Shown piece by piece: positions 1 through 33,079 of a stretch of DNA of 48,850 nt (its first letter is position 1; the number at the start of each line of letters is the position of its first letter). A program made the translations under genes and the position numbers. A model generated the notes under the pieces. The model worked only from the letters and a program-made list of their open reading frames with translations. It was not told the DNA's origin and did no database searches. The DNA is from Sebaldella sp. S0638. Lineage in GTDB: Bacteria > Fusobacteriota > Fusobacteriia > Fusobacteriales > Leptotrichiaceae. The stretch lies in contig NZ_JAMZGM010000023.1 in the NCBI RefSeq assembly GCF_024158605.1, positions 1 to 48,850 on the forward strand, in the 5' to 3' direction.

Positions 1-74
1 TCATTTCGGACACCTGCCTTCTCTCAATTAGTTTACACAATCAAGATTTTTGTGTCCACTTTTTCATACTAACA
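1..74 (-). mobile_element. End of an IS3-like insertion sequence (partial)
   Basis: On the minus strand the sequence from position 74 begins TGTTAGTATGAAAAAGTGGA. This resembles the inverted repeats of IS3/IS150-type elements, which start with TG and have an AAAAAGT(T)GGAC core. About 50 bases further in, an AGGTG ribosome-binding site stands six bases before an ATG at positions 4-2, which would be the first codon of the transposase OrfA running off the window. The exoprotein reading frame at 41-3580 loses its family-like sequence exactly at this boundary. The family assignment is inference from the end sequence alone, because no transposase residues are visible. Confidence 0.5.
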
Positions 75-15240: not shown

Positions 15241-18200
15241 TTATTTATCTAAAGTATATGAAATTCCTGCTTTAAAATTATGATTTTCATAATTTTCATT
15301 ATTTTCGTATTCGTATCCTGCTTTAAAGGTAACTTTATCAGTCATTTCGTAATTAATATCTATATTTCCGCTCAGATTATTCTGTCCGTAATCTAATTCT
15401 GCCATTTTATAATTATTTACCATTTCTCTTTCTTTATAGTATGTGTCAGTAAAGTTTCTCTCGAATCCTATACCTGCATTCCACTTAAATTTCCCTTCTG
15501 TGTTCATTATACTCAGCTTTATTTTTCCTGCTGTCCCGTCCCCTTTGGCAGAACTAATATCAGCCATATCTTCTGTTCTTATAGTTCCTTCATAAACTGA
15601 TATATATTCCAATCCAAAATCCGGACGTAAAACTATGCCGCTGTTATTCAGTTTTTGGTTATATCCTATAGAAATACCTGTTTTCACTACATTAGAATCA
15701 TATCTGCTTTCTTTTATTCCTGCACCAAGCCAGTCTATTTCCTGACTATGTCTGTTATATCCATATCCTGCATATGCATCAAAAATAAAATTTCCAGCCT
15801 GATATCTTCCGAATATATTAATATTTGAAGAATTTATTTTTTCAGTATCATTATTTGAATATGTCACATCATTGTCAATATAGCCCAGTGTTATTCCCAC
15901 CGCTGCATTTTCATTTGCTTTATACAAAATACTTCCGTTTATTCCGTCAGCCTTTGCATCATAATTGTAATTGTGTGTGCTATTTTCGTTAAAATCAGTA
16001 TTTCCTCTGTTTCCTATATAGTCAAAAGATACTGTTGATTCTCCGGCTTTTATATTTATTCCTGTATCAAGTATCTTTTCAGACACAGAAGTTATTTTAT
16101 TCATATTATCCAGATCCACTCTGTTTCTTGGGACATAATTCATTTTTACCGTTGAAATATTTTTAGGTTTCTGCTCTGAAAATTTAGGATCTACAGTAAT
16201 TTCCGAATTACCTTTTTTATTTTCGTCCTCTGCATTATTTTTTTCCGGAATAATCTTTTCTTCCTCTTTGTTATCGCCCTGATTTTCTTCCGGGATATTC
16301 TGATCTTCCTTTTTCTCATTTTCCGGTTTTTCTTCCGGAGTATTTTCATCTTCTTTCTGACCGTCTTCCGGCTTATTTTCGTTATCATCCGCAGGAACCG
16401 GAGGAAGAGTTTTTACATTGGTATACAGCTCATCCAAAACAGTTACACCGTTTTCTATTCTTGAAACAGTTTCACTGACCCACCCTTCTCCTGCTGTCAT
16501 ATTCCCCGATGTATTAAATTTAAACTGCGGATCCACTGCCTGCTGCTTATTTGATATAATTATACTTTTCACTCTTATCTGGTCACCATTATTCATAAGC
16601 CCTGACTCATCTGTAATACTTTTATCAGTTCTTCCTGCATTATTTAATATTATACTTCCATTTTGAAGATTTACACTTTCTGCTATTATTTTTCCTGTTT
16701 TTTCAGTTTCATTAATTATACTGTCATAATCTACGCCAATATTCACAGTCCCATTTACAATGAGGTTCCCTAAGTTTGTTTCTTCATGTATATTTGAAAG
16801 ATTTTTAGCATTGCCGAATGCCTCTGTGTAATAATTCTCATTCTCTGCCGGCTTCAAATATACATTTCCTTCAAGTATAGAATTCCCCTTTGTAACCAGT
16901 TTACTGAAATCTCTTAATTCCTCAAGCTTTATATTTCCGTTTACTATCACAGTATTATCTTCTGTCGATCCCTGAATTTTACCGTTTATTTCAGTTCCGT
17001 CACGTAATTCCAATACATTGCTTCCATTATTGAATTTTATAGCATAATCTGATCCGCTTATCTTCCCACTGTTCAAAAAATGACCGCTGTATTCATTACT
17101 TCCTGCTGTTATCTCCACTCCGATTCTTGAATTTATTTCACCTGTATTTATTGTTTCTCTGTTATTTTCAGCATAAATCCCTCTATCTCCTCCGATTATT
17201 TTCCCAGAATTCAAAATATGTGAATCCAGAGAACTTATTCCACTACCATTCATGACATTTATCATTCCCTGATTTTCGACATTGCTGTTTACAGCTTCTA
17301 TTCCAGAACCATACTCTACATTTATCATACCGCCTGCTGTATTAATAATAGATGATCCTTCTGACTTTATCCCTGTTCCGCTCCCGAACATATCCACTGA
17401 TCCAAAATTAAATATTCTGCTGTAATTTGCATATATTCCTGCTGCACTCATCCCATATATTTTTCCTGTATTTTCAACATTTGAACCATAAGCAGCAATT
17501 CCTTTATTTTCATAGCCGCCTGTATAAATTGTCCCTGCATTTGTCACATTTGAACCGGCACTTTCTATCCCTATTCCAGTTGTACCTGTGACGTACAGCA
17601 TCCCTTCGTTTCTATTTTCATACATTGAATTCAGAATTCTTATACCTGTTCCATTTTCTAATGTTATATTTCCTGTATTTACATATAATCTACCATTGTC
17701 TGACACTTCTATTCCCACAGAATTATTTCCTGTAAGATACATATCTCCTTTATTTAACAAAGTTCCGCCGTCTGTTGCTTTCAGTCCTGTATTATTTTCA
17801 CCTGCCAATATAAAACCTCCATTTGTAAATTCAGTTTCCTGACCGCTCACATATACGCCTGTTGCACCTGTACCAGCGATATTTATATTATTTCTGTTCT
17901 CACCTTTATTTCCTGAAGCTATGTATATTCCTGTACCATTAGCATTCAAATTTATTTCCCCGTCATTTATTACGTTTGAATTCGCCATATCTGCTAAAAT
18001 TCCCGTACCGGAACCGTTTATTGTAATTGTTCCTGTATTATCCCCTGTGTTTACAGATGAATTTCTTAATACAATTCCAGTACCGTTGTTCACTGTTATG
18101 CTTCCACTGTTATGTATACTTGCCCCCGATTGTGAATAAATCGCTGTGGAGTTATCACCTTCAGCAGTAAGATGAGCAGAGTTATATAAATTCGCGTCAT

Positions 18201-19380
18201 TATTTCCCGCTGCCCCATTACCTATAATTCTCAATAAAATCACATTATTTTTATTTTGATCTGCGGTAATATCTGCATTATTTATCAGTTGTGCAGCAAT
18301 AGAAGCAGCAGGGCTGTAAACCAGAATTCCTGTGGCATTATTTCCTTCAATTGATATTATTCCGTCATTTTTGACTATTGATGCCACCCCGTTAATCCCT
18401 GTCCCATTTTCCTGTACTTTTACAGTACCGTTATTCAGAACTGTTCCCACAGGAAAATTCCCTGCATACATTGTTGACTGAATTCCTGTAGTTTTTGAGC
18501 TTATAACACCATTATTTATTACATCTGTACTTACTGAAAAGACTCCGTTTCCGTTTTCAGTCTCTATAAGACCATCATTTATCACTGTACTTTTATGTGA
18601 AGAATATGAATTCGTGATATATATACCTGTTGTATTATTTGTCCCTCTTATTATTCCGCCAGCAGAATTAATAATCTGAGCCTGATTATTAGCCAAAATC
18701 AGATTACTCTGTTCTGCACCGGTTGTTGTTCCAGAAATTTCCCCGTTGTTGGTAAAAGTATTATACCCGGCTACGTAGACACCCGTACTGCTGCCTCCGC
18801 CGTTCAAACGTATTTTTCCGTTATTTATAGCTGTACCGCCTTGTACATCCACATTACCGCCCACACTTATTCCTGTACCGCTGCCGTTTACTATTATAGA
18901 ACCATCATTTCTGAGTTTCCCTGTAAAATTGTAATACGGCCATCCTGCTGAAGCCATCCCTTTTCCAGAATTTGAAACATTTATAATCCCAGACTGAATA
19001 TTTACCAGCTGTCCTGTCCCGTCTCCTGTAAAAAGACCTATTCCGCCTGTTCCGTTTACATTTATAGTTCCAGAGTTACCGGCTATGCCGCCGTTAGTAA
19101 TTAAAAGCCCGCTGTTATACCATCCGTCAAGATTTATAATATGTTTATTTTCAAAGATAAGACCGTTTTTTATGCTGTAACCGTTTAAAAACTTCGCGGG
19201 ATCCATATAATCAGGATTTCCTCCGCTTTTATATGCTCCGTCTCCGCTCACTCTCATATTATCTGTCGAAGTGGAGTTTACGCTTATATTTTTAGTATTT
19301 CCTGAATTGATAACACTTATTTCCGCAGATGATACAATTGAAATCAATGCCATTAAAAACATTATTTTTTTTATTTTCAT
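15241..19380 (-). CDS. Autotransporter adhesin with a beta-helix passenger
   Basis: This type Va secretion protein has 1379 residues from ATG 19380 (an adjacent in-frame GTG at 19383 is the alternative). A signal peptide ('KKIMFLMALISIVSSA') is followed by about 900 residues of degenerate repeats such as 'NxGxIxxxGxGTGIxxxGSxxxN', typical of a right-handed beta-helix passenger. Then come a glutamate- and proline-rich linker (about 1010-1085, repeated PEE/PEK units) and a C-terminal autotransporter beta-barrel of roughly 270 residues ending 'FKAGISYTLDK'. The last residue is lysine rather than the usual phenylalanine or tryptophan. The protein is probably an outer-membrane adhesin. The gene is monocistronic. 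Confidence 0.92.
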   Translation of the reverse strand: MKIKKIMFLMALISIVSSAEISVINSGNTKNISVNSTSTDNMRVSGDGAYKSGGNPDYMDPAKFLNGYSIKNGLIFENKHIINLDGWYNSGLLITNGGIAGNSGTINVNGTGGIGLFTGDGTGQLVNIQSGIINVSNSGKGMASAGWPYYNFTGKLRNDGSIIVNGSGTGISVGGNVDVQGGTAINNGKIRLNGGGSSTGVYVAGYNTFTNNGEISGTTTGAEQSNLILANNQAQIINSAGGIIRGTNNTTGIYITNSYSSHKSTVINDGLIETENGNGVFSVSTDVINNGVISSKTTGIQSTMYAGNFPVGTVLNNGTVKVQENGTGINGVASIVKNDGIISIEGNNATGILVYSPAASIAAQLINNADITADQNKNNVILLRIIGNGAAGNNDANLYNSAHLTAEGDNSTAIYSQSGASIHNSGSITVNNGTGIVLRNSSVNTGDNTGTITINGSGTGILADMANSNVINDGEINLNANGTGIYIASGNKGENRNNINIAGTGATGVYVSGQETEFTNGGFILAGENNTGLKATDGGTLLNKGDMYLTGNNSVGIEVSDNGRLYVNTGNITLENGTGIRILNSMYENRNEGMLYVTGTTGIGIESAGSNVTNAGTIYTGGYENKGIAAYGSNVENTGKIYGMSAAGIYANYSRIFNFGSVDMFGSGTGIKSEGSSIINTAGGMINVEYGSGIEAVNSNVENQGMINVMNGSGISSLDSHILNSGKIIGGDRGIYAENNRETINTGEINSRIGVEITAGSNEYSGHFLNSGKISGSDYAIKFNNGSNVLELRDGTEINGKIQGSTEDNTVIVNGNIKLEELRDFSKLVTKGNSILEGNVYLKPAENENYYTEAFGNAKNLSNIHEETNLGNLIVNGTVNIGVDYDSIINETEKTGKIIAESVNLQNGSIILNNAGRTDKSITDESGLMNNGDQIRVKSIIISNKQQAVDPQFKFNTSGNMTAGEGWVSETVSRIENGVTVLDELYTNVKTLPPVPADDNENKPEDGQKEDENTPEEKPENEKKEDQNIPEENQGDNKEEEKIIPEKNNAEDENKKGNSEITVDPKFSEQKPKNISTVKMNYVPRNRVDLDNMNKITSVSEKILDTGINIKAGESTVSFDYIGNRGNTDFNENSTHNYNYDAKADGINGSILYKANENAAVGITLGYIDNDVTYSNNDTEKINSSNINIFGRYQAGNFIFDAYAGYGYNRHSQEIDWLGAGIKESRYDSNVVKTGISIGYNQKLNNSGIVLRPDFGLEYISVYEGTIRTEDMADISSAKGDGTAGKIKLSIMNTEGKFKWNAGIGFERNFTDTYYKEREMVNNYKMAELDYGQNNLSGNIDINYEMTDKVTFKAGYEYENNENYENHNFKAGISYTLDK

Positions 19381-19428
19381 CACAACTTTCTATTTTTTCA
19401 GAACTATGTTCCGTTTAATTATCATAGT

Positions 19429-19742: not shown

Positions 19743-22433
19743 CTATCCTTTGATTTTTATACTTAAAGCATGACACTTTTCTATATTATCAAGTTTTATA
19801 TCAGAATTATTTCCCAATTCCTTTACAATAGTTTTTTCGTTAAACTTAACTTCTTCCATAGCTTTTATTTCACCATTATAAACAATATTTTCAGAAGCAG
19901 TATTTTCAAAATCAGGATTAAATAATCTGATAATCAGTCCGTCTTCTTTTTCACATTTCTTTACTGTACTCAATACTCCGTTATTCTGACCAAAACTAAA
20001 TAACGAATATTCCTCAGGAAAATCCTTAGCTCCCGGCTGATTTAACAGAAAGAACATATCTACGTTTTTGAAATGAGCTGCCTGGTATCCTGTAAACGGT
20101 GTAAGATATTCTTTTGCTTTTACTGCTATTTTGTTTATATTTTCATCCATAGTGTAAATTTTTACAGCAAAATTAAATTTCAGTTTTTTCAAAAGTTGTG
20201 CATCAGGAGTAGGCCAAGGCATTCCCGAAGGTCTTCCCGGTCTGTCTTTCAAATCAGCTTTCCCCATTTCAGGCACTGATCTGAATAATGTCAGAGCTAT
20301 AGTATTATATCCTTCACCAGTTATCTGATATTCTCTTACACAGTCTGTGAAAACAGCCACACCATAGTCAGCATTTTTCAATGTTACAAATGACTGCATC
20401 GGCTCTATTGTTCTCGGCTTTTCATTCCATCCGTTTTCCTGCCAGTTTTCCACTTCTTTCAGATACGTAGGTCTTTTTATAGTCCCGAACTGCTGATCAG
20501 CAATAGAAAACTCAGAATCTATTCCGGTTTTAAACAGGACTCTTACTCTATGCTCAATAGCTGTATTCTCTAACTCTACATCTGTTTTCAAAAGATCAGA
20601 ACCCATCTCCAGAGTTAGTTTTACATTTACATCTATTTTTTTTGATACTGTATTTTCTACTCTCTCTTTGAGATCTGCTGGTATTTCCAATATTGCAGTA
20701 TAGCTCAGGACACTTATTATATCACTTTTCTGTACTTTAATATTCTTTATTTCATGTTTATTAGAATGTAAAATCCAGTCTTTTCTCGGTTCGGAATAAT
20801 CATATGTATCTCCGTCATCACCGCTGTTTTCAAATACTAAAGAACCCTTTATCCCTTTTTGGTTTATCTTATTAAATATGCTTACTTCGCCATTTTGTGA
20901 AACTTCCACTTTCAGAATATCATTTTCTATCTCAGTAGTTCCTGCTGTTTCTGTAAGCTCTGCCGATGTAAAGTTTTCTTCTTCTTTCTTTACATACAAT
21001 GTTTTATATCCCATAGCTTCTATATCTGTAATATAAAGCAATATTTTCGACGAGAATATTCTCACATCTTCCTGAACCCATCTAGGTTTTTCATTCCCGT
21101 CGAACCCTACTTCAGAAAGCATTTTATTTCTGATTCTTTCAGCAATTTCCTCTGAATGAAGCAGTGTCACGCCAAGCTCTTTTCCCTGAGCATCTGTAAT
21201 AGTGAATTTATCAGATGGTGTAAAGATTTCTAATTCCACAACACCGTTTCTTTTATATGGTGAAAAATTATAAACCTGAAATTGAAAGATATCTTTTTCA
21301 GGAATTTTCATTCCTATAAGTCTCATATTTATTTCATTAAGACTTTCCATTATTTCCTGTGAACGCTTGAATCTGTACCAGATATCCGAGTTTGTATTAT
21401 CAGAATTGCACATTCCGCTGCTGTCATGTGCAGCATTTTCACACATTAATTTCCATACTTTCTCAAATACTTTTGTTTCATATTTGAAACCAAGCTTATA
21501 GGCAATTGAGCTCAAAGGTTCTGATACATTTGTGATAAGGTTTTCAGTTTTATTATTCATTATTTTCAAATCTGCACGTGTTGAAAAAATAGACTTGTGA
21601 ATTCTGCTGTATTCTCCGGATGTCATTTCACCCTTTATAGTATCGTATTCTATATCCTCATTTTCCATCTGCTCCATTACTTTTTCCACTGTAGAAATAC
21701 TAAATTCACAGTCAGGGAAAAGAACCTTCATTTTTTCCATAATTTCAGGAAGATTTTTTCTTATTGGTCTCTGATCTTCTCCGTTATACAATGTAAGAGT
21801 TCCTATTCTTGATCTCTCGTCAGTTTCTTTTTTGAGCCTGTCAATTAACGATCTCAACGATTCTTCTTCACTTGTAAAGTATGTAAAGTTACCATATCTG
21901 TCCAGATAACAGTTAAATACTCTGCTCCCGTCTTCTGACTCCCAGTAATATTCATTCTTAGGATACTGCTCAGCTTTTATTCCCCTTTTAAATGTATTTC
22001 TGTAAATATCAAAACCATTCAAAATCTGCGGCATCTGTGCAGTTTGTCCAAAAGAGTCAGGCATATATCCTACCATCATACTTTTCCCCAGCTCTTCTGC
22101 TCTTGTGATTCCGTAATACAGATTTCTCAGTATTGACTCCCCGCCTATTACCAGCTGGTCTGTCTGTGTATACCATGGCCCCACTGTAAGTCTGTCTTCC
22201 TTAATAAGCTTCTTTATTCTCTCTTCATCTTCAGGATGAAATTCAAGATAATCATCTACTACCGATGTCTGTGCATCGAGTAAGAAATGCGGAAAATTCT
22301 CATTCTCTTCCAGAACGTCCATTACCTCCTTGAAGTCTACAAGAGAATATATAATTGATTTTGAAGTAGTAAAATACCACTCTCTGTCCCAGTGTGTATG
22401 CGGAATAATAGGAAATTTATATTTTTTAGACAT
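19743..22433 (-). CDS. mngB: GH38 alpha-mannosidase, mannosylglycerate hydrolase type
   Basis: This 896-residue glycoside hydrolase family 38 enzyme is close in length to E. coli MngB. The N-terminal 'PHTHWDREW' (residues 11-19) holds the zinc ligands, 'GYMPDSFGQ' contains the nucleophile aspartate, and 'CENAAHDSSGMCNSD' supplies a further zinc-binding histidine. No signal peptide is present, so it acts in the cytosol on a sugar brought in by the adjacent PTS. In E. coli the substrate is 2-O-(6-phospho-alpha-mannosyl)-glycerate. The operon context here (PRD regulator, EIIA, EIIB, EIIC, MngB) supports this type of substrate, but another phosphorylated mannoside cannot be excluded. Confidence 0.9.
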   Translation of the reverse strand: MSKKYKFPIIPHTHWDREWYFTTSKSIIYSLVDFKEVMDVLEENENFPHFLLDAQTSVVDDYLEFHPEDEERIKKLIKEDRLTVGPWYTQTDQLVIGGESILRNLYYGITRAEELGKSMMVGYMPDSFGQTAQMPQILNGFDIYRNTFKRGIKAEQYPKNEYYWESEDGSRVFNCYLDRYGNFTYFTSEEESLRSLIDRLKKETDERSRIGTLTLYNGEDQRPIRKNLPEIMEKMKVLFPDCEFSISTVEKVMEQMENEDIEYDTIKGEMTSGEYSRIHKSIFSTRADLKIMNNKTENLITNVSEPLSSIAYKLGFKYETKVFEKVWKLMCENAAHDSSGMCNSDNTNSDIWYRFKRSQEIMESLNEINMRLIGMKIPEKDIFQFQVYNFSPYKRNGVVELEIFTPSDKFTITDAQGKELGVTLLHSEEIAERIRNKMLSEVGFDGNEKPRWVQEDVRIFSSKILLYITDIEAMGYKTLYVKKEEENFTSAELTETAGTTEIENDILKVEVSQNGEVSIFNKINQKGIKGSLVFENSGDDGDTYDYSEPRKDWILHSNKHEIKNIKVQKSDIISVLSYTAILEIPADLKERVENTVSKKIDVNVKLTLEMGSDLLKTDVELENTAIEHRVRVLFKTGIDSEFSIADQQFGTIKRPTYLKEVENWQENGWNEKPRTIEPMQSFVTLKNADYGVAVFTDCVREYQITGEGYNTIALTLFRSVPEMGKADLKDRPGRPSGMPWPTPDAQLLKKLKFNFAVKIYTMDENINKIAVKAKEYLTPFTGYQAAHFKNVDMFFLLNQPGAKDFPEEYSLFSFGQNNGVLSTVKKCEKEDGLIIRLFNPDFENTASENIVYNGEIKAMEEVKFNEKTIVKELGNNSDIKLDNIEKCHALSIKIKG

Positions 22434-22472
22434 TTTTTCTCCTTTGTTTTATGTATTTCTGATAAAAAGAAA

Positions 22473-22639
22473 AAAGGCAGTCCGGGATATAAAAATCCCG
22501 TTTTTATAATCTGCCCCTTTTACTTATGTTTTATAATTGCGCACATATCTGCAATAACAAAACATTTATACCGGCTGTTTACTCGAATAATCTGAATAAA
22601 AACCGTTGTTAATTACCCCTCTCATATTAATAAGAGGGG
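22473..22639 (-). other. Two RNA hairpins between the EIIC and mannosidase genes
   Basis: The 218-base spacer contains two structures. CCCCTCT/AGAGGGG (22616-22622 with 22633-22639) lies 13 bases after the EIIC stop. A nested hairpin follows, with CGGGAT/ATCCCG (22483-22500) inside GGCAG/CTGCC (22476-22515), ending in CCTTTTTTCTTTTTATC on the minus strand. The second has terminator features, so part of the transcripts may stop before mngB. Confidence 0.65.
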
Positions 22640-22651
22640 CAGAACTTTTTA

Positions 22652-23830
22652 TTAATCTTCGTCTATTACTAATTTTCCTTTTTTAATAAGGCTGTTTCTG
22701 TAGTATACATTTACTACGGCTATTATTACTGCACCTATTGCTATTCCAAGTATATAAACACCCAGATTTTTTACAAGAGGCCAAGCCCATATTGCCGATT
22801 CAGGGAACCATTGTTCTGCACCCAGAATTACACCTGACATAGCTCCGATTATAGAACCTACTACATATAAAGGAATAGTAAAGCTTGGTCTTTCAAGGGC
22901 AAATGGTATTGCTCCCTCAGAAATCCCCATAAATGCAAGAAACATAGATGTTTTTCCTAATTCATAGAATTCATCTTCATATACTTTTCTTCCTACAAGT
23001 TTTCTGTCAATTAATGTTGATAACCCAAGACCTATAGACGGTGTTACTATTGCTATTGTTCTTGCTGTGATTGGAAGTATTTTTTCAGTAGTAAATCCTA
23101 AAGCCACGAAACCTGCTGCTTTATTTACCGGTCCTCCAAGGTCAAACGCTGTTGTTCCCGCAAGTACAAGCGAATATACAAGCTGTCCTGCATTTCCTGC
23201 TGCTTCAAGTACCGATCTTATCTGTAAATTCAGCCATCCTCCTACCGGAGTCAGAACAAAAACCATTAGAACCATACAGAAAAAAGAAGATAATAAAGGT
23301 ATAAGGAATGTACTCTTAAACGCAAGCCATTTATGCGGCATCTGTATTTTTTTATTTAAAAATTTTACACAATATCCTACTGCAAAAGCTATTAATATAG
23401 CTCCTAAAAATCCTGACGGTACTGGAGTTACACCTTCCCATTTTCCGTCAATTAATTTTAATACTGATACTGGTTTATTAGCGATATATCCACCGATAAA
23501 TCCACCTGCAAGTGCTGTTTTACCACCGATTGAGTTAGCTGTAAACGCTGCGAACATTGGTATTGCAAAGCTGAATAATGTAAATCCAAAATTAGACATT
23601 ATATCCGCGAGTCTCATCAGCATTAATGAAGCTCCCGAAAACTGACCTGATGCCACTGCATCTGATATAGACACAGCCGGATCCACTTTAAAAATTACAT
23701 AAGGTATTATCTGAGAAAATGCTCCTATTAGTCCCCCCATTATCAATACGGGTATCATGTATGATATCCCTGTCATTACATGTTTATAAAGCTCTTTTAT
23801 CACTTTATTATTTTTCTTCTTTTTTTCCAT
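22652..23830 (-). CDS. PTS fructose/mannosylglycerate-type EIIC permease
   Basis: This is a 392-residue integral membrane permease of the fructose PTS family. Starting at ATG 23830, after GGAGGGAACT, it begins 'MEKKKKNNKVIKELYKHVMT'. An open extension of 23 codons upstream lacks a ribosome-binding site. About ten hydrophobic segments are visible, including 'GISYMIPVLIMGGLIGAF', 'FIGGYIANKPVSVLK' and 'LGISEGAIPFALERPS' (here 'MGISEGAIPFALERP', the sugar-binding signature of the family). EIIA, EIIB and EIIC are three separate genes here, whereas E. coli MngA carries all three domains in one chain. The protein imports and phosphorylates the substrate for MngB. Confidence 0.9.
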   Translation of the reverse strand: MEKKKKNNKVIKELYKHVMTGISYMIPVLIMGGLIGAFSQIIPYVIFKVDPAVSISDAVASGQFSGASLMLMRLADIMSNFGFTLFSFAIPMFAAFTANSIGGKTALAGGFIGGYIANKPVSVLKLIDGKWEGVTPVPSGFLGAILIAFAVGYCVKFLNKKIQMPHKWLAFKSTFLIPLLSSFFCMVLMVFVLTPVGGWLNLQIRSVLEAAGNAGQLVYSLVLAGTTAFDLGGPVNKAAGFVALGFTTEKILPITARTIAIVTPSIGLGLSTLIDRKLVGRKVYEDEFYELGKTSMFLAFMGISEGAIPFALERPSFTIPLYVVGSIIGAMSGVILGAEQWFPESAIWAWPLVKNLGVYILGIAIGAVIIAVVNVYYRNSLIKKGKLVIDED

Positions 23831-23963
23831 AGTTCCCTCCACTATAATTTCAGTTTTTATTTTCTGATTCTTGGATCTCACCCTTTTAATAAATGACACA
23901 AAATACTAATGTACCAAAAATATTTTCCGGCTGATTTAATCAAACAGCCTGTTCAGCAAAGGA

Positions 23964-24263
23964 TTAGCACTCTTCAAGAATTTCTTTTGCATTTCTGATT
24001 GCTTCTTTCAAAGAAACCTCATGCACATCATATCCGTCAAATCTTTCTACTTCCTGTGGTGTTACTGCAATAGCATGTATTATTGCATCTGCTTCTCTTA
24101 TATCCTTTTTTGTAAGTTCATTCTGAATTCCGTCAGCTCCCTGAGTTTCTATTTTTATTTCGTACCCTAATTCATCTGCTGCCTTTTTTAAAGAATCCGC
24201 TGCCATAAATGTATGTGCCAGACCCATTGGACATGCACAAACCGCTACTATTTTTTTACTCAT
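23964..24263 (-). CDS. PTS fructose-type EIIB component
   Basis: This 99-residue cytosolic phosphotransfer protein has the phosphorylated cysteine as Cys11 in 'CACPMGLAHTFMAA', the signature of fructose and mannosylglycerate IIB domains. It receives phosphate from EIIA (24311-24748) and hands it to the sugar carried by EIIC. The gene lies between the EIIA gene (47-base gap) and EIIC (133-base gap), all in the same direction, in the usual A-B-C order. Confidence 0.93.
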   Translation of the reverse strand: MSKKIVAVCACPMGLAHTFMAADSLKKAADELGYEIKIETQGADGIQNELTKKDIREADAIIHAIAVTPQEVERFDGYDVHEVSLKEAIRNAKEILEEC

Positions 24264-24310
24264 ATTTCTTTCCTCCTGCTAAATTTGTTTTTTATAAATT
24301 AATATATTTA

Positions 24311-24748
24311 TTAACTGTTTATCATTTCCAAAACTTCTTCAAGACTTGCCGTATCCAATTTTTCCCTGAATTTTTCATCAAGAATTTTCTGAGAAAGACC
24401 GGCCAGTACCTCTATGTGCTTCGATGCTTCTCCTGCGGGAACTGCTATTAAAAACACATATTTTACATATTCGTCTTCATCTCCCCAGTTTATTTCTTTT
24501 GTGAGCCTTGCAAAAGCAAGTCTCGCTTCACTTATCCATGATGATTTTCCGTGAGGTATTGCTACGCCGAAACCTACAGCAGTATTATCCATTTCTTCAC
24601 GGGCATATATATCTTTTAAAAAACCGTCAAAATTAGTTACTATTCCTTCTTTTTGAAGTTTTTCAGCCAGACTGACTATTACTTCATCCTTTTTTTCCGT
24701 ATCCATATCTAAAATTATGTTTTCTTTTTTTAACAGTCCTGTACTCAT
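24311..24748 (-). CDS. PTS fructose/mannitol-type EIIA component
   Basis: This 145-residue PTS EIIA-2 protein has its active-site histidine as His66 in 'GVAIPHGKSS'. It takes phosphate from HPr and passes it to EIIB. Its start codon overlaps the stop codon of the regulator gene (ATGA, 24748-24745), which indicates translational coupling. It is the second gene of the operon, after its regulator. Confidence 0.93.
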   Translation of the reverse strand: MSTGLLKKENIILDMDTEKKDEVIVSLAEKLQKEGIVTNFDGFLKDIYAREEMDNTAVGFGVAIPHGKSSWISEARLAFARLTKEINWGDEDEYVKYVFLIAVPAGEASKHIEVLAGLSQKILDEKFREKLDTASLEEVLEMINS

Positions 24749-26835
24749 CTATTCCTCCTATTTATCAAAAAATTTTCTAATTGCTCTCTTGTATTGATTT
24801 TTAAAAGTTCTTTTTCAAATTCGGGATCTCTGAAATAATTATTTAATTCAAGTATCGCATTTATATGTTCATGCTTGGCTACAGATGCCAGGCATATAGC
24901 TATTTTTATTTCTGATCCGAAAAATGAAATGGGATTTTTCAATGAAACAAAACTGAAACCTGTTTTCTTTACACTTTCATTTAGCTTCCCATGTGGAAGA
25001 ATAGTATTTTCACCCATTACCACATAATCCCCGAAATTCCTTATCTGCTCCTTCATTTCCTCTATATAGTCAGAAACTATGTATCCTGAATCTATAAGAA
25101 GTTTTCCGGAATATTCCAATACCTCCTCCCAGTTCTTCAAATCCACATTCAGTGCTGTATTTCTCTTATCCAGCAGTTCCAAAAAATTAGAAGTTTTTTC
25201 TGTTTCTATGTCATTTTTCACATATTCCCTTAGTTGTTTCTTTATGTTTTCTATTATAAGCTCTTCGTTTTCTATATGTTTATTTTCTTTTATTACCTTC
25301 AAAATTTTTGAGATAGGTATTTTAGCTGATTTTTTTGTTAATGCATATTCTTCAAGCTTATCTATATCTTCTTGCTGGAGTATGGGATTTACCTTTACCA
25401 CTTCCAGACCTTCCATCTCTATATCTATTGTAGATACCACCAAATCCACGGATTTTATATATTCAAAGTTTTCCAGCTGGTTAAAAGGTATTATATCCAC
25501 TATATTTACATCAAATTTTTCATTTATATTTTCTGCAAGAAACTGTGAACTGCTGTAACCCAGACCGCATACCAGCAGAATATTACGTTTTTCCTCACCG
25601 AGAAGTTTTTCCTGATTTCTTGTTATTGCCCTCTTAAACATTATTGTAATAAAGGCTATCTCATCTTCGTCAATACTCTCATCCAAAAACTCATTTATTA
25701 CTCCCAGACTGATTCTTGTTTTTTCATAAAGATCAGCATATTCAGTTTTTACATCTTCCAATATGGAAACTTTCAGGCTCATTTTGTTTTTAATCCTGTA
25801 AATCGCCGGTTTCATATGATTTATCAGTTCTTTTATCAAAATCTGGTCATTTTTGAAGTCAGTATCAAATACTTTTGCAGCATCTTCCAGTATTCTTCCT
25901 ACTAGCGTCTCTATTTTCATCCAGTTCAGATAAAACGAAAATTTTGTATTATATGAGTAAGATCCCATGTAAAAATCCGTGAATATTATCTGGTCTTTTT
26001 CTCTGTAATTTACATCTTCATTTTGGAAAATCTCTTTTATTATCTTGTATTCCTCGGTACTTTTTATAAAATTAGAGTTGCTTATATCTTCAGTTATAAA
26101 ATACTTTCCTCTGTTTCTTATACTGGTAATAATCATATGCAGTAAAAGTGCGTCATAAGCTTCGTCAGTGATTATTTTCTTAGTTTTCTGCTGTATTTTT
26201 AAAAGAATATTTTTATAAAGGTTTATATCTTCATTTTGAAAATATTTTTTCTTCTTTTCAAAAATCAAAAGTTTTACTATTTTTAGATTATTTATATCTT
26301 CTCTTTCTATCTCTTCGGTAAAACCGCCGTATTTATGCAGTATGCTTATCATCAGCTGTCTTATGTTACTTTCTTCACCTGTGAGAATATAACCCTGATT
26401 ATTATTAATATCTATTTTTACACCAAACTCTTTGATTTTCTCATTCATATCTTTTATATCTTTTCTAAGAGTTGCTTTACTTATAAGCAGCTCGTCAGAC
26501 AGAGCCTGAAGAGTGAATTTTTCCCTGAAAAGCAATATTTCCAGCAGAAGTATCTCTATTCTTTCTTCACTTGTAAAAATATATTTTTGCGGGAGCATAT
26601 CTTTTATAAGAGAAGTCAGTTCTTCCCGGCTTATATTGGAAACCAGTTTCCCTTCTTCCATTTCAAGAATATTAGTATTTTCACTATTTATAAATTCTTC
26701 ATTTATCTCTTTTATATCATATCTGATACTTCTCTCAGAAACTTGAAAGTGTTCTGAAATATATTTTATATCCATAACTTTGTCATTTTGGAAAACCAGA
26801 TTTAATATCTCAATATGTCTTTGTTTCAAACTCAT
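24745..26835 (-). CDS. PRD-containing transcription regulator (MtlR/LicR-like, with EIIB and EIIA domains)
   Basis: This 696-residue PTS-controlled activator has two N-terminal helix-turn-helix domains ('ISEHFQVSERSIRYDIKEIN' near 30-50, and a second around 105-135). Two PTS regulation domains follow (about 190-400), with histidines such as in 'LINHMKPAIYRIKNKM'. An EIIB-like domain has a cysteine in 'LLVCGLGYSSSQF' (near 420). A C-terminal EIIA domain has 'ILPHGKLN' (His near 615). Phosphorylation of these sites by HPr, and dephosphorylation when sugar flows through the PTS, would set activity. It is the first gene of its own operon, coupled to EIIA, and replaces the GntR-type MngR known from E. 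coli. It begins at ATG 26835 after GGAGGTG. Confidence 0.9.
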   Translation of the reverse strand: MSLKQRHIEILNLVFQNDKVMDIKYISEHFQVSERSIRYDIKEINEEFINSENTNILEMEEGKLVSNISREELTSLIKDMLPQKYIFTSEERIEILLLEILLFREKFTLQALSDELLISKATLRKDIKDMNEKIKEFGVKIDINNNQGYILTGEESNIRQLMISILHKYGGFTEEIEREDINNLKIVKLLIFEKKKKYFQNEDINLYKNILLKIQQKTKKIITDEAYDALLLHMIITSIRNRGKYFITEDISNSNFIKSTEEYKIIKEIFQNEDVNYREKDQIIFTDFYMGSYSYNTKFSFYLNWMKIETLVGRILEDAAKVFDTDFKNDQILIKELINHMKPAIYRIKNKMSLKVSILEDVKTEYADLYEKTRISLGVINEFLDESIDEDEIAFITIMFKRAITRNQEKLLGEEKRNILLVCGLGYSSSQFLAENINEKFDVNIVDIIPFNQLENFEYIKSVDLVVSTIDIEMEGLEVVKVNPILQQEDIDKLEEYALTKKSAKIPISKILKVIKENKHIENEELIIENIKKQLREYVKNDIETEKTSNFLELLDKRNTALNVDLKNWEEVLEYSGKLLIDSGYIVSDYIEEMKEQIRNFGDYVVMGENTILPHGKLNESVKKTGFSFVSLKNPISFFGSEIKIAICLASVAKHEHINAILELNNYFRDPEFEKELLKINTREQLENFLINRRNR

Positions 26836-26865
26836 TTTTTAGACACCTCCATACACTCCACTTAA

Positions 26866-26894
26866 TTTATACCTTCATTTTGAACATTTACCAA
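26866..26894 (-). promoter_or_regulatory. Promoter of the PTS-mannosidase operon
   Basis: On the minus strand TTGGTA (26894-26889) and TATAAA (26871-26866) have a 17-base spacing. The -10 box ends 30 bases upstream of the regulator ATG. Confidence 0.65.
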
Positions 26895-27182
26895 GATTTA
26901 AAGTTTTTCATGAATTAGTGAAAAGAAATTAAGGGGTAAATTTTTCTGTTATGTAATGTTAATTGTGTAGCTGTTTTTTATAAAATAAGTATAGTATATT
27001 TGTTCTGTTTATTTTTATTAATATTTCCGACCTTTTATCTATATTCACTATTCTATTTTATAATTGTAATATCTCTCTTTGTAAACCACTGTTTTTTCTT
27101 TACAATATAAAACAGAAACATTCTTATCCCCATATAAAGTCAGACAATTTATCGCCGGCATTAACACTTACTTCAAATATAA

Positions 27183-27221
27183 AAATAGGATTCTCATAAT
27201 CTTAATATGACAATCCTATTT
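27183..27221 (-). terminator. Terminator of the LacD-type aldolase gene
   Basis: AAATAGGATT (27183-27192) pairs perfectly with AATCCTATTT (27212-27221), 14 bases after the aldolase stop, followed by T residues on the minus strand. Confidence 0.8.
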
Positions 27222-27234
27222 ATATCTCATAATA

Positions 27235-28245
27235 TTATTTTACTTCTATCTTTTCCAATCCCCCGTAGATATTCCACCAAGGTACTGCACTTTTTTCCAG
27301 AATTTCATTTAGTTCAAGAACATTAGCTTTCCCTTCTGTTCTCAGCCATTCTGTCAATCCTTGTAAACCTTTCTCTATATACACCTTCACACCATCCTGC
27401 CATGTTGCTCTTCCGCAAAGCACTCCACTGAAAGGAGTTTTTGCTTCAGCTGCAAGCTTTATAGTTTCACGGAATTGTTCAGCTGTTACTCCTGCACTCA
27501 GATATATAAAAGGCAGTGTAGCGAGATCGGCTGCATCCTGAAAATGTTTTATAGCTTCTTTTTTAGTATAAGCTGTCGCCCCGTCTGTATACCCTTCTGT
27601 AAAGTGTAAATTTATCGGCACTTCAAGTTTTAGGACATCTATGTTATATTGAGGTTTTGTAAGTTCTTTAATTGTATTTTTTACTTTATGCGGTTTTACT
27701 TTTGCATATTCTATGCTTTTTGCATCTTCTATTTTACTGTCATAAGTAACAGGTTCAAGGAAAAATGGTATATCTAATCCTTTACACTCTGCACCCACTC
27801 TTTCTATGAAAGCATGCTTTATATCATTGATTTCCGCAGGTTCGTCAGGATCATAGTAAATCAAAAGCTTTACAGCATTTGCACCATATTCCTTAATTCT
27901 GAGAGCTGACAGATCATCTATCAGATCAGGAAGTCGTCCGGGTTCAGTAGCATCATATCCCGTTTTTTCATATGCCACCAAAAGCCCTGTATCAGGATTT
28001 TTAGCTTTTATTGCTGTAGTTCCATATTCCAAATCCAGCAATATTGCAGATGTAAATGGTGTAAGCTCCTTTGATACTGCTTCCTTAAATTCTTCTATTT
28101 CTTCAAGCTTTACAGAGCTTCCTCTGACTTTGGAAAGCATTTTTTCTATTGAACCACGCTGGTCAATGGCCAAAGCCTCTATTATTCCTTTTTTATTTGA
28201 CAATCTTTTTAATCCTTCAAACTTACCTTTAGTTATCTTTGCCAT
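27235..28245 (-). CDS. lacD: Class I aldolase, tagatose-1,6-bisphosphate aldolase (LacD) family
   Basis: This 336-residue cytosolic aldolase matches the length of LacD (about 326). It has 'IIEALAIDQRGSIEKML' at the N-terminus, 'LLDLEYGTTAI', 'AVKLLIYYDPDE' and 'DVLKLEVPIN', where the lysine is the likely Schiff-base residue, and 'LPFIYLSAGVTAEQF' near the phosphate site. LacD splits tagatose-1,6-bisphosphate into dihydroxyacetone phosphate and glyceraldehyde-3-phosphate. The same family includes YihT-type aldolases for sulfofructose phosphate, so the substrate is likely but not certain. No lacABC genes are adjacent. The gene is monocistronic and starts after AGGAGG. Confidence 0.85.
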   Translation of the reverse strand: MAKITKGKFEGLKRLSNKKGIIEALAIDQRGSIEKMLSKVRGSSVKLEEIEEFKEAVSKELTPFTSAILLDLEYGTTAIKAKNPDTGLLVAYEKTGYDATEPGRLPDLIDDLSALRIKEYGANAVKLLIYYDPDEPAEINDIKHAFIERVGAECKGLDIPFFLEPVTYDSKIEDAKSIEYAKVKPHKVKNTIKELTKPQYNIDVLKLEVPINLHFTEGYTDGATAYTKKEAIKHFQDAADLATLPFIYLSAGVTAEQFRETIKLAAEAKTPFSGVLCGRATWQDGVKVYIEKGLQGLTEWLRTEGKANVLELNEILEKSAVPWWNIYGGLEKIEVK

Positions 28246-29957: not shown

Positions 29958-30063
29958 CCACATTTTCATGATTAAGTGGCAAATAAATGATTATTAATTT
30001 TATCTGCCCTCTTTATTTCCGGCATTTTTACTAATTTTTTTAATTATTTCCTATTAAATATGA

Positions 30064-30069
30064 TATAAT
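30064..30069 (+). promoter_or_regulatory. -10 box of the membrane-protein array promoter
   Basis: A perfect TATAAT lies 31 bases before the ATG at 30101. The -35 candidate is weak (TTAATT at 18 bases). No other promoter or terminator is obvious between the seven genes, so this may drive the whole array. Confidence 0.55.
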
Positions 30070-30100: not shown

Positions 30101-30484
30101 ATGGATAGTACTGATAGCAGTATAAAATCAATGTATCTTACATTGTTTATTTTAGTTATTATTGAAATAGTTCTTACGCTTCTTTTGGGCAATCTAGTCG
30201 CAATCGCTGTTCTTATAATAGCTTTTATGCTGCGTACAAAATTAATGGAGGCTGGAAAGCCTGCTAGTAAGGGAATTAAATTAACAATCATAGGAAGCGG
30301 AATTCATGCAGCAACTCTTATTTTGGGGATATTTAGTCTGTTCTCGTTTATATTTTATATAATTCCGTTTTTCAATCTTTTTTATTCTATAATTGCTCTA
30401 TTTCTTAACATTGCTGTATTTGTTATATTAATCATCGCTTGTATCATGATTTATAATGAATATGATGCAATTAAAGAAGTATAA
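30101..30484 (+). CDS. Four-helix membrane protein, array member 1
   Basis: This 127-residue inner-membrane protein has four predicted transmembrane segments. It shares a fixed plan with the six following genes: a short polar N-terminus, 'SMYLTLFILVIIEIVLTLLL', then 'GNLVAIAVLIIAF', a positively charged loop ('LRTKLMEAGKPASKGIKL'), a third helix 'TIIGSGIHAATLILGIF', and a last helix ending 'IMIYNEYDAIKEV'. GGAGGG precedes the ATG. I do not recognise the family and no catalytic motif is visible. The glycine-rich third helix and conserved C-terminal 'IYxEYxAI' are the diagnostic features. Confidence 0.8.
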   Translation: MDSTDSSIKSMYLTLFILVIIEIVLTLLLGNLVAIAVLIIAFMLRTKLMEAGKPASKGIKLTIIGSGIHAATLILGIFSLFSFIFYIIPFFNLFYSIIALFLNIAVFVILIIACIMIYNEYDAIKEV

Positions 30485-30540
30485 GTATTTTTTATTTTGA
30501 ACTCAAATCCAATATTTTAAATATAGAAAGGAAATATTTC

Positions 30541-30926
30541 ATGGAAAATAAAGAAAGTATAAAATCTACGTACCTTGTATTGTTCATTCTGGGAATAGTC
30601 GAAGCTGTCCTAGCCTTTTTTCTAGGTAGTATTATAGGAATTGCTGTTTTTATATTTGCACTTATCCTGCGTTCTAAACTGGCAAAAGAAAATCTGCCCC
30701 TACTCCGGGAATTAAATTAATGCTTATAGGAAGCGGAATTCAAATTGGGACTCTTGCCCTTGGATTCATTACTGCGATAGTAGCATTGATTTCTTATTTG
30801 ACTTATTCCAGTGGGATTCTGTTGAATTTTTTCAATGTTTTTATCTCCCTGTTTAATCTGGGAGCATTTGTTGTACTGATCATTGCCTGTGTTTTTGTTT
30901 ACAAGGAATATGATGCAATTAAATAA
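30541..30926 (+). pseudogene. Four-helix membrane protein, array member 2, frameshifted
   Basis: Starting at ATG 30541 (after AAAGGAAA), the frame gives 'MENKESIKSTYLVLFILGIV', helix 2 and 'LRSKLAKENLP', then stops at 30718. The rest of the family sequence ('TPGIKLMLIGSGIQIGT' to 'FVYKEYDAIK', ending at 30926) continues in the -1 frame. The change occurs at a CCCC run at 30697-30700. One extra C would restore the reading LPPTPGIKL. This could be a true mutation, a phase-variable tract or a sequencing error. The full-length product would be about 128 residues with four helices. Confidence 0.8.
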
Positions 30927-30986
30927 TACTAATTTTATGCGAGAATCAAGAAAAATACTTTATTCTTGATTTTGAAGGAGTTTTTA

Positions 30987-31376
30987 TTGAAAAATAATAA
31001 TTTAAAATCACTATACAAAGCACTATTTATTTTAGCAATTATTGAAACTGTATTCTTTTTTTTTCCGGGAAATATTTTATCTCCTGTAGTTTTCATAATA
31101 GTTTTTAAAATTATTTCTCAATTCAGATATTATAATTTTGAAGGCACTATTCCCAAAGGATTAAAATTTCTACTTATTGGAAGCATAATTCATTTTATTT
31201 CTTTCCTCATTCTTGTATATGCTTCTATACTAATTGCAATAAAAGGTTTTCATTCAAATGCCTTTTATCTTCTGCGTACATTGGAAAACATCTTTATAAT
31301 ACTTGTGATTTTCTCATTTATTTTACTTAGTTCAGGATGTATTTTCGCATATAAAGAATACAAAAATATCAAATAA
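30987..31376 (+). CDS. Four-helix membrane protein, array member 3
   Basis: This is a 129-residue paralogue starting at TTG 30987, six bases after AAGGAG. The encoded N-terminus 'MKNNNLKSLYKALFIL' aligns with the other members. The open frame extends seven codons further upstream, but that part carries the ribosome-binding site itself. The protein is more divergent: the loop is 'SQFRYYNFEGTIPKGLKF', and the C-terminus 'CIFAYKEYKNIK' keeps the family ending. Four transmembrane segments are predicted. Function unknown. Confidence 0.75.
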   Translation: MKNNNLKSLYKALFILAIIETVFFFFPGNILSPVVFIIVFKIISQFRYYNFEGTIPKGLKFLLIGSIIHFISFLILVYASILIAIKGFHSNAFYLLRTLENIFIILVIFSFILLSSGCIFAYKEYKNIK

Positions 31377-31406
31377 ATATATTATATTTTAGAAAAGAGG
31401 GGTTTT

Positions 31407-31814
31407 ATGGAAAATAATAATACCAAATCATTATATCTCGCACTATTTATTCTTAGCGTTGTAAACGCTGTATTTTCTACACTTTTTGTAACATTTTCAT
31501 TTGGCTTTTTTATAGATATAGCTGTATTTATATTAATTCTGATAATTTTAAGACCGAAACTGCCTAAAGAAAAGCCGATGCCTTCTGGTATAAAGTTATT
31601 ATTAATATCTTGTATTATACATTTTGTCACTGTTGTTTTACTGTCAATTTCAAGTTTACTGAATTATATTATATCACTTGAAATTGGGCGTGACAGCAGT
31701 AATCTTATATTTCTTCCTGCTAATTTAATTGGTATTTTACTGACAATTGTCTCTATTGTACTCTTAATTATCAGCAGTGTGAAAGTTTATAAAGAATACA
31801 ACTCGATTAATTAA
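31407..31814 (+). CDS. Four-helix membrane protein, array member 4
   Basis: This 135-residue paralogue starts 'MENNNTKSLYLALFILSVVN', with the loop 'LRPKLPKEKPMPSGIKLLLI' and C-terminus 'SVKVYKEYNSIN'. It has four predicted transmembrane helices. An AGAGGGG sequence precedes the ATG, and the gap to the previous gene is 30 bases. Identity with its neighbours is highest in helix 1, the basic loop and the final 'YKEY' motif, which suggests that these parts carry the shared function or contact a shared partner. Confidence 0.78.
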   Translation: MENNNTKSLYLALFILSVVNAVFSTLFVTFSFGFFIDIAVFILILIILRPKLPKEKPMPSGIKLLLISCIIHFVTVVLLSISSLLNYIISLEIGRDSSNLIFLPANLIGILLTIVSIVLLIISSVKVYKEYNSIN

Positions 31815-31847
31815 AAATAAAATTTTATAACAAAAAGGAGTTTTTCA

Positions 31848-32237
31848 ATGGAAAATAACAATAATCTAAAATCTATGTACTTCGTATTATTTATACTTCT
31901 TCTTATAGAAACTGTTTTATTTATTCTTTTTGGAAATATAATGGCTGTTGCTACCTTTATTATAGCCTTGATTTTACGTTCAAAATTACCTAAAGGAACA
32001 CGAACTCCTTCAGGAATAAAATTAGCAATTATCTCCACTGTACTGCACTTTTTAGGTAACTTTTTTTCTATATTTATAGTGATTCTCGCTGAGTTATCAG
32101 AATATTCTGATGGACTTCTGATTTTTTCTCTTATTTGCTTTTTGATTTTTTTTATATACCTCATCGCTACATTTGTATTGCTTATTGTCAGCTGTGTTAA
32201 AATATATTCTGAATACAAAGCTATTGATAATTACTAA
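31848..32237 (+). CDS. Four-helix membrane protein, array member 5
   Basis: This 129-residue paralogue is close to the family consensus: 'MENNNNLKSMYFVLFILLLI', 'GNIMAVATFIIALILRSKLP', 'KGTRTPSGIKLAIIST', and C-terminal 'SCVKIYSEYKAIDNY'. It has four hydrophobic segments, no signal-peptide cleavage site and a strong AAAGGAG ribosome-binding site. The gap to member 4 is 33 bases, so the genes are probably cotranscribed. Function unknown. Confidence 0.78.
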   Translation: MENNNNLKSMYFVLFILLLIETVLFILFGNIMAVATFIIALILRSKLPKGTRTPSGIKLAIISTVLHFLGNFFSIFIVILAELSEYSDGLLIFSLICFLIFFIYLIATFVLLIVSCVKIYSEYKAIDNY

Positions 32238-32258
32238 TTTTAAAAAAGGAGAACAGCT

Positions 32259-32651
32259 ATGAATAACAACAATACCGATTTTAAAGCACTATATTTTGCA
32301 TTGTTTATTCTTGGGATTTTACAATGTGTATTTTCACTTATTACTATTATAATTTTTATGAACATTTTAGCAGGTCTTTTAGATATTGCAATTTTTGTAT
32401 TAATCATTATTCTTTTCATGAAACAGCCTAAGAACACTTCAGGTCTGAAATTAATGATGATTGCTTGTATAATTAATTTTTGTGCTCCATTAATTTATCT
32501 AACTACTATATTATTTTCATTAAATGAAAATTCTATTCCTGTTTTTATGATTTTTTCACATATTCTGTTTTATTCACTATTTATTATCTCATATATTTTG
32601 ATGATTATCGGCTGTATTAAGGTCTATAAAGCATATACAGCCATTAACTAG
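32259..32651 (+). CDS. Four-helix membrane protein, array member 6
   Basis: This 130-residue paralogue reads 'MNNNNTDFKALYFALFILGI', with the loop 'LFMKQPKNTSGLKLMMIACI' and C-terminus 'IGCIKVYKAYTAIN'. It has four transmembrane segments. It starts 22 bases after member 5 and is preceded by AAAAAGGAG. The last motif has A instead of E (YKAY for YKEY). No enzymatic residues are recognisable. Confidence 0.78.
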   Translation: MNNNNTDFKALYFALFILGILQCVFSLITIIIFMNILAGLLDIAIFVLIIILFMKQPKNTSGLKLMMIACIINFCAPLIYLTTILFSLNENSIPVFMIFSHILFYSLFIISYILMIIGCIKVYKAYTAIN

Positions 32652-32683
32652 CTTAAAAACTTAATTATAAAAAGGGGGTTAAC

Positions 32684-33030
32684 ATGAATACTAATAAAGA
32701 TATTCAAAACTTATATTTTACACTATTTATTTTACTTATTGTTGAAATTATTCTGTTTTTGTTTATTGGGCTTCTCATGGCAATAGCAGTCTTTATCATA
32801 TCAATAATAATATATTCAAAATTTCCAAAAAACTGTGCACTTCCTAATGGCTTAAAATTGGCTTTAATAACCAGCGGTGCCCGTATTATAATGCCGGGAA
32901 TATCTGTTATTTTTATATTTTTTTCTCCGCTTACATTTTTTTTATTTTCTTTTGTTATTTAATAATATATATCTACATAATTGTAGCATGTGTAAAAATA
33001 TATAAGGAATATACTGAATTATTCAACTAA
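32684..33030 (+). pseudogene. Four-helix membrane protein, array member 7, frameshifted
   Basis: The frame from ATG 32684 (after AAAGGGGG) encodes 'MNTNKDIQNLYFTLFILLIV', helix 2, a loop 'SKFPKNCALPNGLKLALI' and part of helix 3, then stops at 32962. The missing family C-terminus is intact in the -1 frame: 'IYIIVACVKIYKEYTELFN', ending at 33030. The switch must lie near 32935-32960, which includes a run of eight T residues. As in member 2, one added base would restore a normal protein of about 115 residues. Confidence 0.75.
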
Positions 33031-33042
33031 AATTATATAAAT

Positions 33043-33079
33043 AAAACTATCTGAGTTTTTTGAACTGATTGATAGTTTT
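33043..33079 (+). terminator. Terminator of the membrane-protein array
   Basis: AAAACTATC (33043-33051) pairs with GATAGTTTT (33071-33079), followed by TTTATT. It lies just after the end of array member 7. Confidence 0.8.

Follow-up and report, generated by a model that had tools for sequence, protein, structure and literature searches.

A tandem array of diverged membrane protein genes at the dgt-rplQ site of Sebaldella and its possible role in immunity

Why does Sebaldella sp. S0638 keep a row of seven related genes for small membrane proteins between dgt and rplQ, and what might these proteins do? The window analyzed here is a stretch of 48,850 nucleotides (contig NZ_JAMZGM010000023.1, positions 1 to 48,850), which is contig 23 of a 4.27 Mb genome in 292 contigs (G000) from the same genus as the termite-gut species Sebaldella termitidis. 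At 30101-33030 it harbors seven homologous units on the plus strand (W1-W7), separated by gaps of 21-60 bases and each with a purine-rich ribosome-binding stretch 5' of it; the array is flanked by the minus-strand genes dgt and rplQ. An earlier inspection of the letters alone (the sequence-only reading) had placed seven genes here, between dgt and the ribosomal block. The location, the common strand and the small gaps were confirmed, but only five units (1, 3, 4, 5 and 6) are intact open reading frames (ORFs), of 127-136 codons, while units 2 and 7 are frame-broken. Judged by sequence, the units encode an undescribed, roughly four-helix membrane protein family, and the array was not described in the titles and abstract beginnings listed on Sebaldella, on orphan and pore-forming immunity, on contact-dependent inhibition (CDI) orphans of Fusobacteria and on small tandem membrane arrays. 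The reading that we tentatively favor, at clearly less than even probability, is that the array consists of immunity-type shields of the inner membrane and forms a homogeneous polyimmunity locus working like the tsaI strings of Staphylococcus aureus.

The family was characterized in 12 complete members, namely the five intact window units, four S. termitidis units from the same site (T1-T4) and three copies from a second locus, with W2 and W7 excluded. They share one plan, in which a polar start is followed by a hydrophobic pair, a basic loop with G-x-K, a further hydrophobic pair and, at the end, a tail resembling YKEYxxI. In the alignment, all 12 members have a tyrosine ahead of the first hydrophobic stretch and the G-x-K ahead of the third, and the tail glutamate and tail tyrosine are each present in 11; a buried glutamate lies in the first hydrophobic stretch of eight and a buried histidine in the third stretch of 11. 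Kyte-Doolittle hydropathy and the positive charges suggest four helices, with both protein ends and the basic middle loop predicted to be cytoplasmic. Of the 'four-helix' plan proposed before, the shared plan was thus recovered, while the helix number is approximate, as a crude helix counter gave four helices in seven members, five in four and three in one. The intact window units are 29-40% identical pairwise, and two of them (W1 and W4) are each 55% identical to an S. termitidis unit, with a ratio of nonsynonymous to synonymous substitution (dN/dS, by Nei-Gojobori, which is crude at the distances seen here) of 0.35-0.36. The units are therefore not chance frames, and the possibility of random hydrophobic frames without conservation in relatives was dismissed.

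No significant match was obtained in Pfam (eight pieces and 13 alignment members), NCBIfam (six pieces) or PADLOC (13 members), and a profile search of PDB sequences gave no match at E up to 10, in agreement with the sequence-only reading, to which the family was unknown. The 13 members, which also make up a 13-row profile, were used for the Pfam, PADLOC and PHROG comparisons; the Pfam list extended to E 5, though its filters remove most matches with E above roughly 0.1. The best Pfam E-values, for DUF996 and DUF6476 (0.011 each), were insignificant, as were those for DUF4870 (0.075) and MARVEL (0.094), with DUF996 matched by two members, DUF4870 by one and MARVEL by two. DUF996, DUF4870 and MARVEL are short multi-helix membrane proteins like those of the array. 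Neither DUF443 nor the SMR profile was listed for any of the 13 members. SMR proteins carry a conserved glutamate in the first transmembrane segment (TM1), whereas here a glutamate in the first stretch is present in only eight of the 12 complete members. Among PHROGs, two matches were best, with E 0.0016 and 0.002; both concern a single one of the 13 members and families of no known function.

Profile searches of the phylum, which the sequence-only reading had proposed as a check, found the family in few genomes. With the 13-row profile, matches at E <= 0.01 were obtained in three of 98 Fusobacteriota genomes including the window's own, all Sebaldella; within the genus three of four genomes matched, the fourth being G001, which is 86% complete. 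As judged from these profiles, the restriction to the genus holds within Fusobacteriota, the phylum that the search covered. A 6-row profile matched four of 60 genomes, the fourth through a weak match that did not recur. A weak match in G007 (E 0.006, with stops) vanished with the 13-row profile and was dropped, as was a match in the window's own genome (G000:C32 18166-18324, E 0.009), which lies antisense within a 904-codon ORF; a second weak own-genome match, on C9 (E 1.34), was dropped unread. With W5 as query, neither the phage records (50,697) nor the plasmid records (72,556) gave a match, and the copy of G002, another Sebaldella genome, gave none in the plasmid records. Scans of genome contigs with degenerate peptides yielded 24 and 31 stretches, of which none and one (G002's own locus) were confirmed, and a scan of viral contigs yielded 73 stretches, none confirmed.

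The dgt-rplQ site was then compared in four Sebaldella genomes and shows four states: seven units in the window's genome, four in S. termitidis (G003), relics only in G001 and another gene in G002 (87% complete). The expectation that copy number varies between species was thereby borne out. In S. termitidis, whose dgt is 94% identical to that of the window, all four units are intact, and in both arrays only family units lie between dgt and rplQ, with no toxin gene inside the locus. W1/T1, W2/T2 and W4/T4 are paired by order and best partner (55%, 72% over the N-terminal part and 55% identity), and W3 and T3 by position alone (33% identity). A tree of the 12 complete members gave support only for W1 with T1 and for two close second-locus copies together; the W4/T4 pairing rests on identity and order because the tree leaves it unresolved. 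A short stretch after T4 resembles the W7 tail (3 of 1000 shuffles as good). In G001, with a dgt 95% identical to the window's, only 450 bases separate dgt from rplQ, and they hold a tail relic (1 of 1000 shuffles) and a likely head relic (2 of 1000 shuffles against W5, 13 against W7 and 789 against W1). In G002 a 264-codon minus-strand gene (L048 3936-4730, no Pfam match) stands in the array's place, followed by the rplQ end. In the simplest history an array predates the split of G000, G001 and G003, with units 5-7 subsequently lost in S. termitidis and almost all units in G001; for units 5 and 6, a gain in G000 is a possible alternative. Since dgt stays beside rplQ in all four genomes, with the array present in two, reduced to relics in one and replaced in one, dgt is not tied to the array, and its neighborhood looks coincidental, as the sequence-only reading had considered possible.

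The repeat number and the divergence between units had been taken as a sign of recent, ongoing amplification. This did not withstand comparison with S. termitidis: ten pairs of intact window units gave dN 0.57-0.77 and dS 0.89-1.86, against dN 0.34 and 0.31 and dS 0.87-0.97 for W1/T1 and W4/T4. The dS of the intact-unit pairs is near saturation and noisy (0.89 for units 3 and 6; saturated in two of 36 pairs). As dN within the window is higher and dS no lower than in the two S. termitidis pairs, none of the duplications clearly postdates the species split, and recent tandem amplification was rejected. The visible recent events, relics and frame breaks, point to loss. Mosaic exchange between paralogues was likewise rejected: when the genes were divided into thirds, W1 and T1 matched each other best in two or more of them, as did W4 and T4, W2 being ambiguous in its 3' parts.

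The two S. termitidis pairs are constrained, yet change far faster than their surroundings, as five flanking genes have dN/dS of 0.02-0.05 (dS 0.27-1.24, dN 0.007-0.041). When both pairs were pooled and divided along the protein, with a boundary chosen after viewing the alignment, the segment predicted to face outward, comprising outer TM3, the TM3-TM4 loop and outer TM4, had dN/dS 0.80 (73 codons) and the remaining parts 0.23-0.24. In the second-locus pair the same segment had 0.32 and the parts elsewhere 0.12 and 0.19; as a whole, the second-locus copy has 0.17 compared with 0.01-0.05 for three neighbors.

From the computed family, its distribution in the phylum, its rates, relics and frame breaks we infer the remainder, that is topology, membrane, toxin, protection and one variant per toxin. 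The locus would be a single-promoter array of diversified, genus-restricted membrane proteins, fixed in its chromosomal position, whose evolution combines old duplication with rapid protein change, loss and decay. Each protein would act as an immunity-type shield in the inner membrane. Its constant cytoplasmic face would hold or assemble the protein, while the rapidly changing part, made up of the outer halves of TM3 and TM4 and the loop joining them, would meet a membrane-acting antibacterial toxin of neighboring cells, with one variant per toxin type. A polyimmunity locus is proposed because the constant inside face, the shifting outside face, the toxin-free tandem arrangement and the change in copy number fit it. 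The broader claim that this is a new class of Fusobacteriota membrane immunity array, with a fixed cytoplasmic face and an outer face diversifying against toxins of gut neighbors, which arose in Sebaldella at dgt-rplQ and is lost where competition relaxes, appears rather unlikely as it stands.

Two known systems served for comparison. The tsaI strings of S. aureus (DUF443) confer immunity to the membrane-depolarising toxin TspA and are tandem, non-identical genes for polytopic membrane proteins, with 2-16 copies per strain; the first two TMs are conserved, the rest varies, and there is little recombination between paralogues (PMC9484751). The array resembles them in its tandem non-identical membrane genes, variable copy number, one conserved and one fast-varying part and scarce paralogue recombination, but tsaI has five predicted TMs and adjoins the toxin gene tspA, whereas no recognised toxin lies alongside the array; nor, as stated above, did DUF443 appear for the array family. 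Homogeneous polyimmunity loci (SUKH, Imm11 and others) are described as having one orientation, short gaps, no toxin between the genes and copy numbers that differ between relatives (PMC3482391). The array has the same strand throughout, gaps of 21-60 bases and no toxin inside, and its copy number differs (seven, four, relics, none), in a comparison between species and not strains. Unlike these loci, it has no known immunity family or toxin neighbor elsewhere, as the profile found no match outside the two loci, and its neighbors are dgt and rplQ and not a recombinase.

The second locus bears on this proposal from both sides. A lone family copy is found there in G000, G003 and G002, next to a thiamine-binding-protein gene (Pfam) of an ABC group and, on the other flank, to what we presume by eye to be glycerol catabolism genes; in G001 the thiamine-binding gene was not found. 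In favor of immunity, the S. termitidis copy lies beside a CdiI_3 immunity gene (E 2.8e-33). This gene (L025 7233-7634, minus strand) has no toxin gene recognised in the stretch read, and its family has one member in G003 and one, on a different contig, in G002, but none in G000 or G001. Ten two-partner-secretion (TPS) domains, a type known from CdiA-like exoproteins, were detected in the window's genome, and contact toxins are therefore likely to be part of the organism's biology. Adhesins as well as CdiA toxins are found among large TPS proteins. One of the ten lies in the window, at 2735-3493 (E 2.4e-21), within a 1179-codon ORF at 41-3580 on the minus strand. TPS-domain hits (10 in G000, six in G003, eight in G002 with one below cut-off, three in G001) do not track copy number in the four genomes.

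A number of observations weigh against immunity. No known immunity domain was found in the members by Pfam or NCBIfam, no toxin gene was recognised beside any family copy, and CdiI_3 is a neighbor at only one of three second-locus copies. None of the ten TPS loci with 3' ends read (five each in G003 and G000, out of 16 TPS hits) carries a family member. No relative occurs among the plasmid and phage records searched, though genes for immunity are often mobile. A raised rate is also seen outside the family, as a TatD-like gene near the second locus has dN/dS 0.17 as well, and the outer-segment boundary was set with the alignment in view. No segment has dN/dS above 1, hence Nei-Gojobori gave no sign of positive selection, and an outer loop can be weakly constrained without any toxin being involved. 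The next same-strand ORF (at least 70 codons) after the ten TPS loci had a crude helix count of 0-2 in nine cases and of 3 in one (L054), which is within the range of 3-5 that the same counter gave for the family. That ORF (L054 1848-2174, minus strand), on an S. termitidis replicon of 54,160 bases, directly follows an ORF with a TPS domain; it encodes a 108-aa protein with three hydrophobic stretches, possibly a membrane immunity protein of another kind.

Other explanations have to be weighed on the same evidence. A lineage-specific family of membrane physiology, such as a tetraspan scaffold or a stress or envelope protein, may have expanded in an ancestor and now be weakly selected and in the course of loss, so that variation on the outer face would reflect tolerance; we regard this as nearly as probable as the favored reading. 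It would account for the decay visible in W2, W7 and the relics of S. termitidis and G001, for the confinement to one genus among the 98 genomes and for the weak resemblance to generic families (DUF996, DUF4870 and MARVEL), whereas a dN/dS of 0.23-0.24 over the conserved parts and the invariant Y, G and K of all 12 complete members argue that function is kept. The units might instead be distinct subunits that build a single hetero-oligomeric membrane complex, or they might form a small family of transporters with a Glu-His pair buried mid-membrane. The frequency of the two residues (8 and 11 of 12) and the co-directional genes with one probable promoter and terminator are in line with this idea, which is nevertheless improbable: W4, W6 and the G000 and G003 copies from the second locus have another residue in place of the glutamate, the site holds seven, four or no units, G002, in an 87%-complete genome, shows a single copy, and the sole transporter-type Pfam match at E up to 5 was CitMHS (0.056, one of 13 members).

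Phage-defence or surface-variation genes whose units are switched on and off by homopolymer slippage, of which the first two had been suggested by the sequence-only reading, are very unlikely. The W7 break does fall where T7 and T8 runs occur, and intact W3 contains a T9 run, but W2 has no run of at least seven A/T or five G/C, in a comparison limited to one isolate. The neighbors are dgt and rplQ, and PADLOC gave no significant defence-system match, its best hit (E 0.017, CARF_HEPN model) being to one of the 13 members, which speaks against the suggestion of phage defence.

Whichever explanation applies, a protein family seen in one genus of the searched phylum, with a conserved and a fast-changing side, is available together with a natural series of four states (seven, four, relics, none) at one chromosomal site. 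If immunity is its function, the range of polyimmunity loci would come to include Fusobacteriota as well as membrane proteins that have no known relatives; otherwise the array would be a compact example of birth-and-death within a small membrane family.

The individual units, all on the plus strand, differ in their state. W1 (30101-30484) is intact with 127 aa and groups with T1 in the tree (97/93; dN/dS 0.35). W2 (30541-30926) is split near the middle into ORFs of 59 and 68 codons in different frames; its N-terminal part matches T2 as given above, and its C-terminal part is 54% identical to W1 and 42% to T2. W3 (30987-31376) is intact with a TTG start, a longer TTG start at 30966 being possible, and stands on a long tree branch of unsure placement. 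W4 (31407-31814, 135 aa) is intact and has T4 as best partner along the whole gene. W5 (31848-32237, 129 aa), also intact, has E21 within its first hydrophobic stretch and H67 within its third, and in intact W6 (32259-32651, 130 aa) Q and N replace the buried E and H. In W7 (32684-33030) a stop follows 92 codons and the tail lies in another frame. Both frame breaks are known from one isolate, and sequencing error is possible for either.

One promoter and one terminator had been proposed for the array. A probable extended -10 promoter element (TGnTATAAT) at 30061-30069 on the plus strand is kept upstream of the S. termitidis array, but a scan for consensus promoters listed 32 sites, which is not an excess over shuffled sequence (26.9 +/- 5.4). 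A probable intrinsic terminator hairpin followed by a T run lies at 33043-33079 on the plus strand (fold z -3.16); its sequence is largely kept in S. termitidis and G001, but the S. termitidis counterpart reaches a fold z of only -1.91, and the hairpin is absent from the list of the consensus scan.

Elsewhere in the window, a 1380-codon ORF on the minus strand (15241-19383) had no Pfam match at E 0.001. Upstream of dgt, genes for a GH38 alpha-mannosidase, PTS IIC and IIA, a PRD regulator and a DeoC/LacD-family aldolase at 19743-28245 on the minus strand likely form a sugar-use group.

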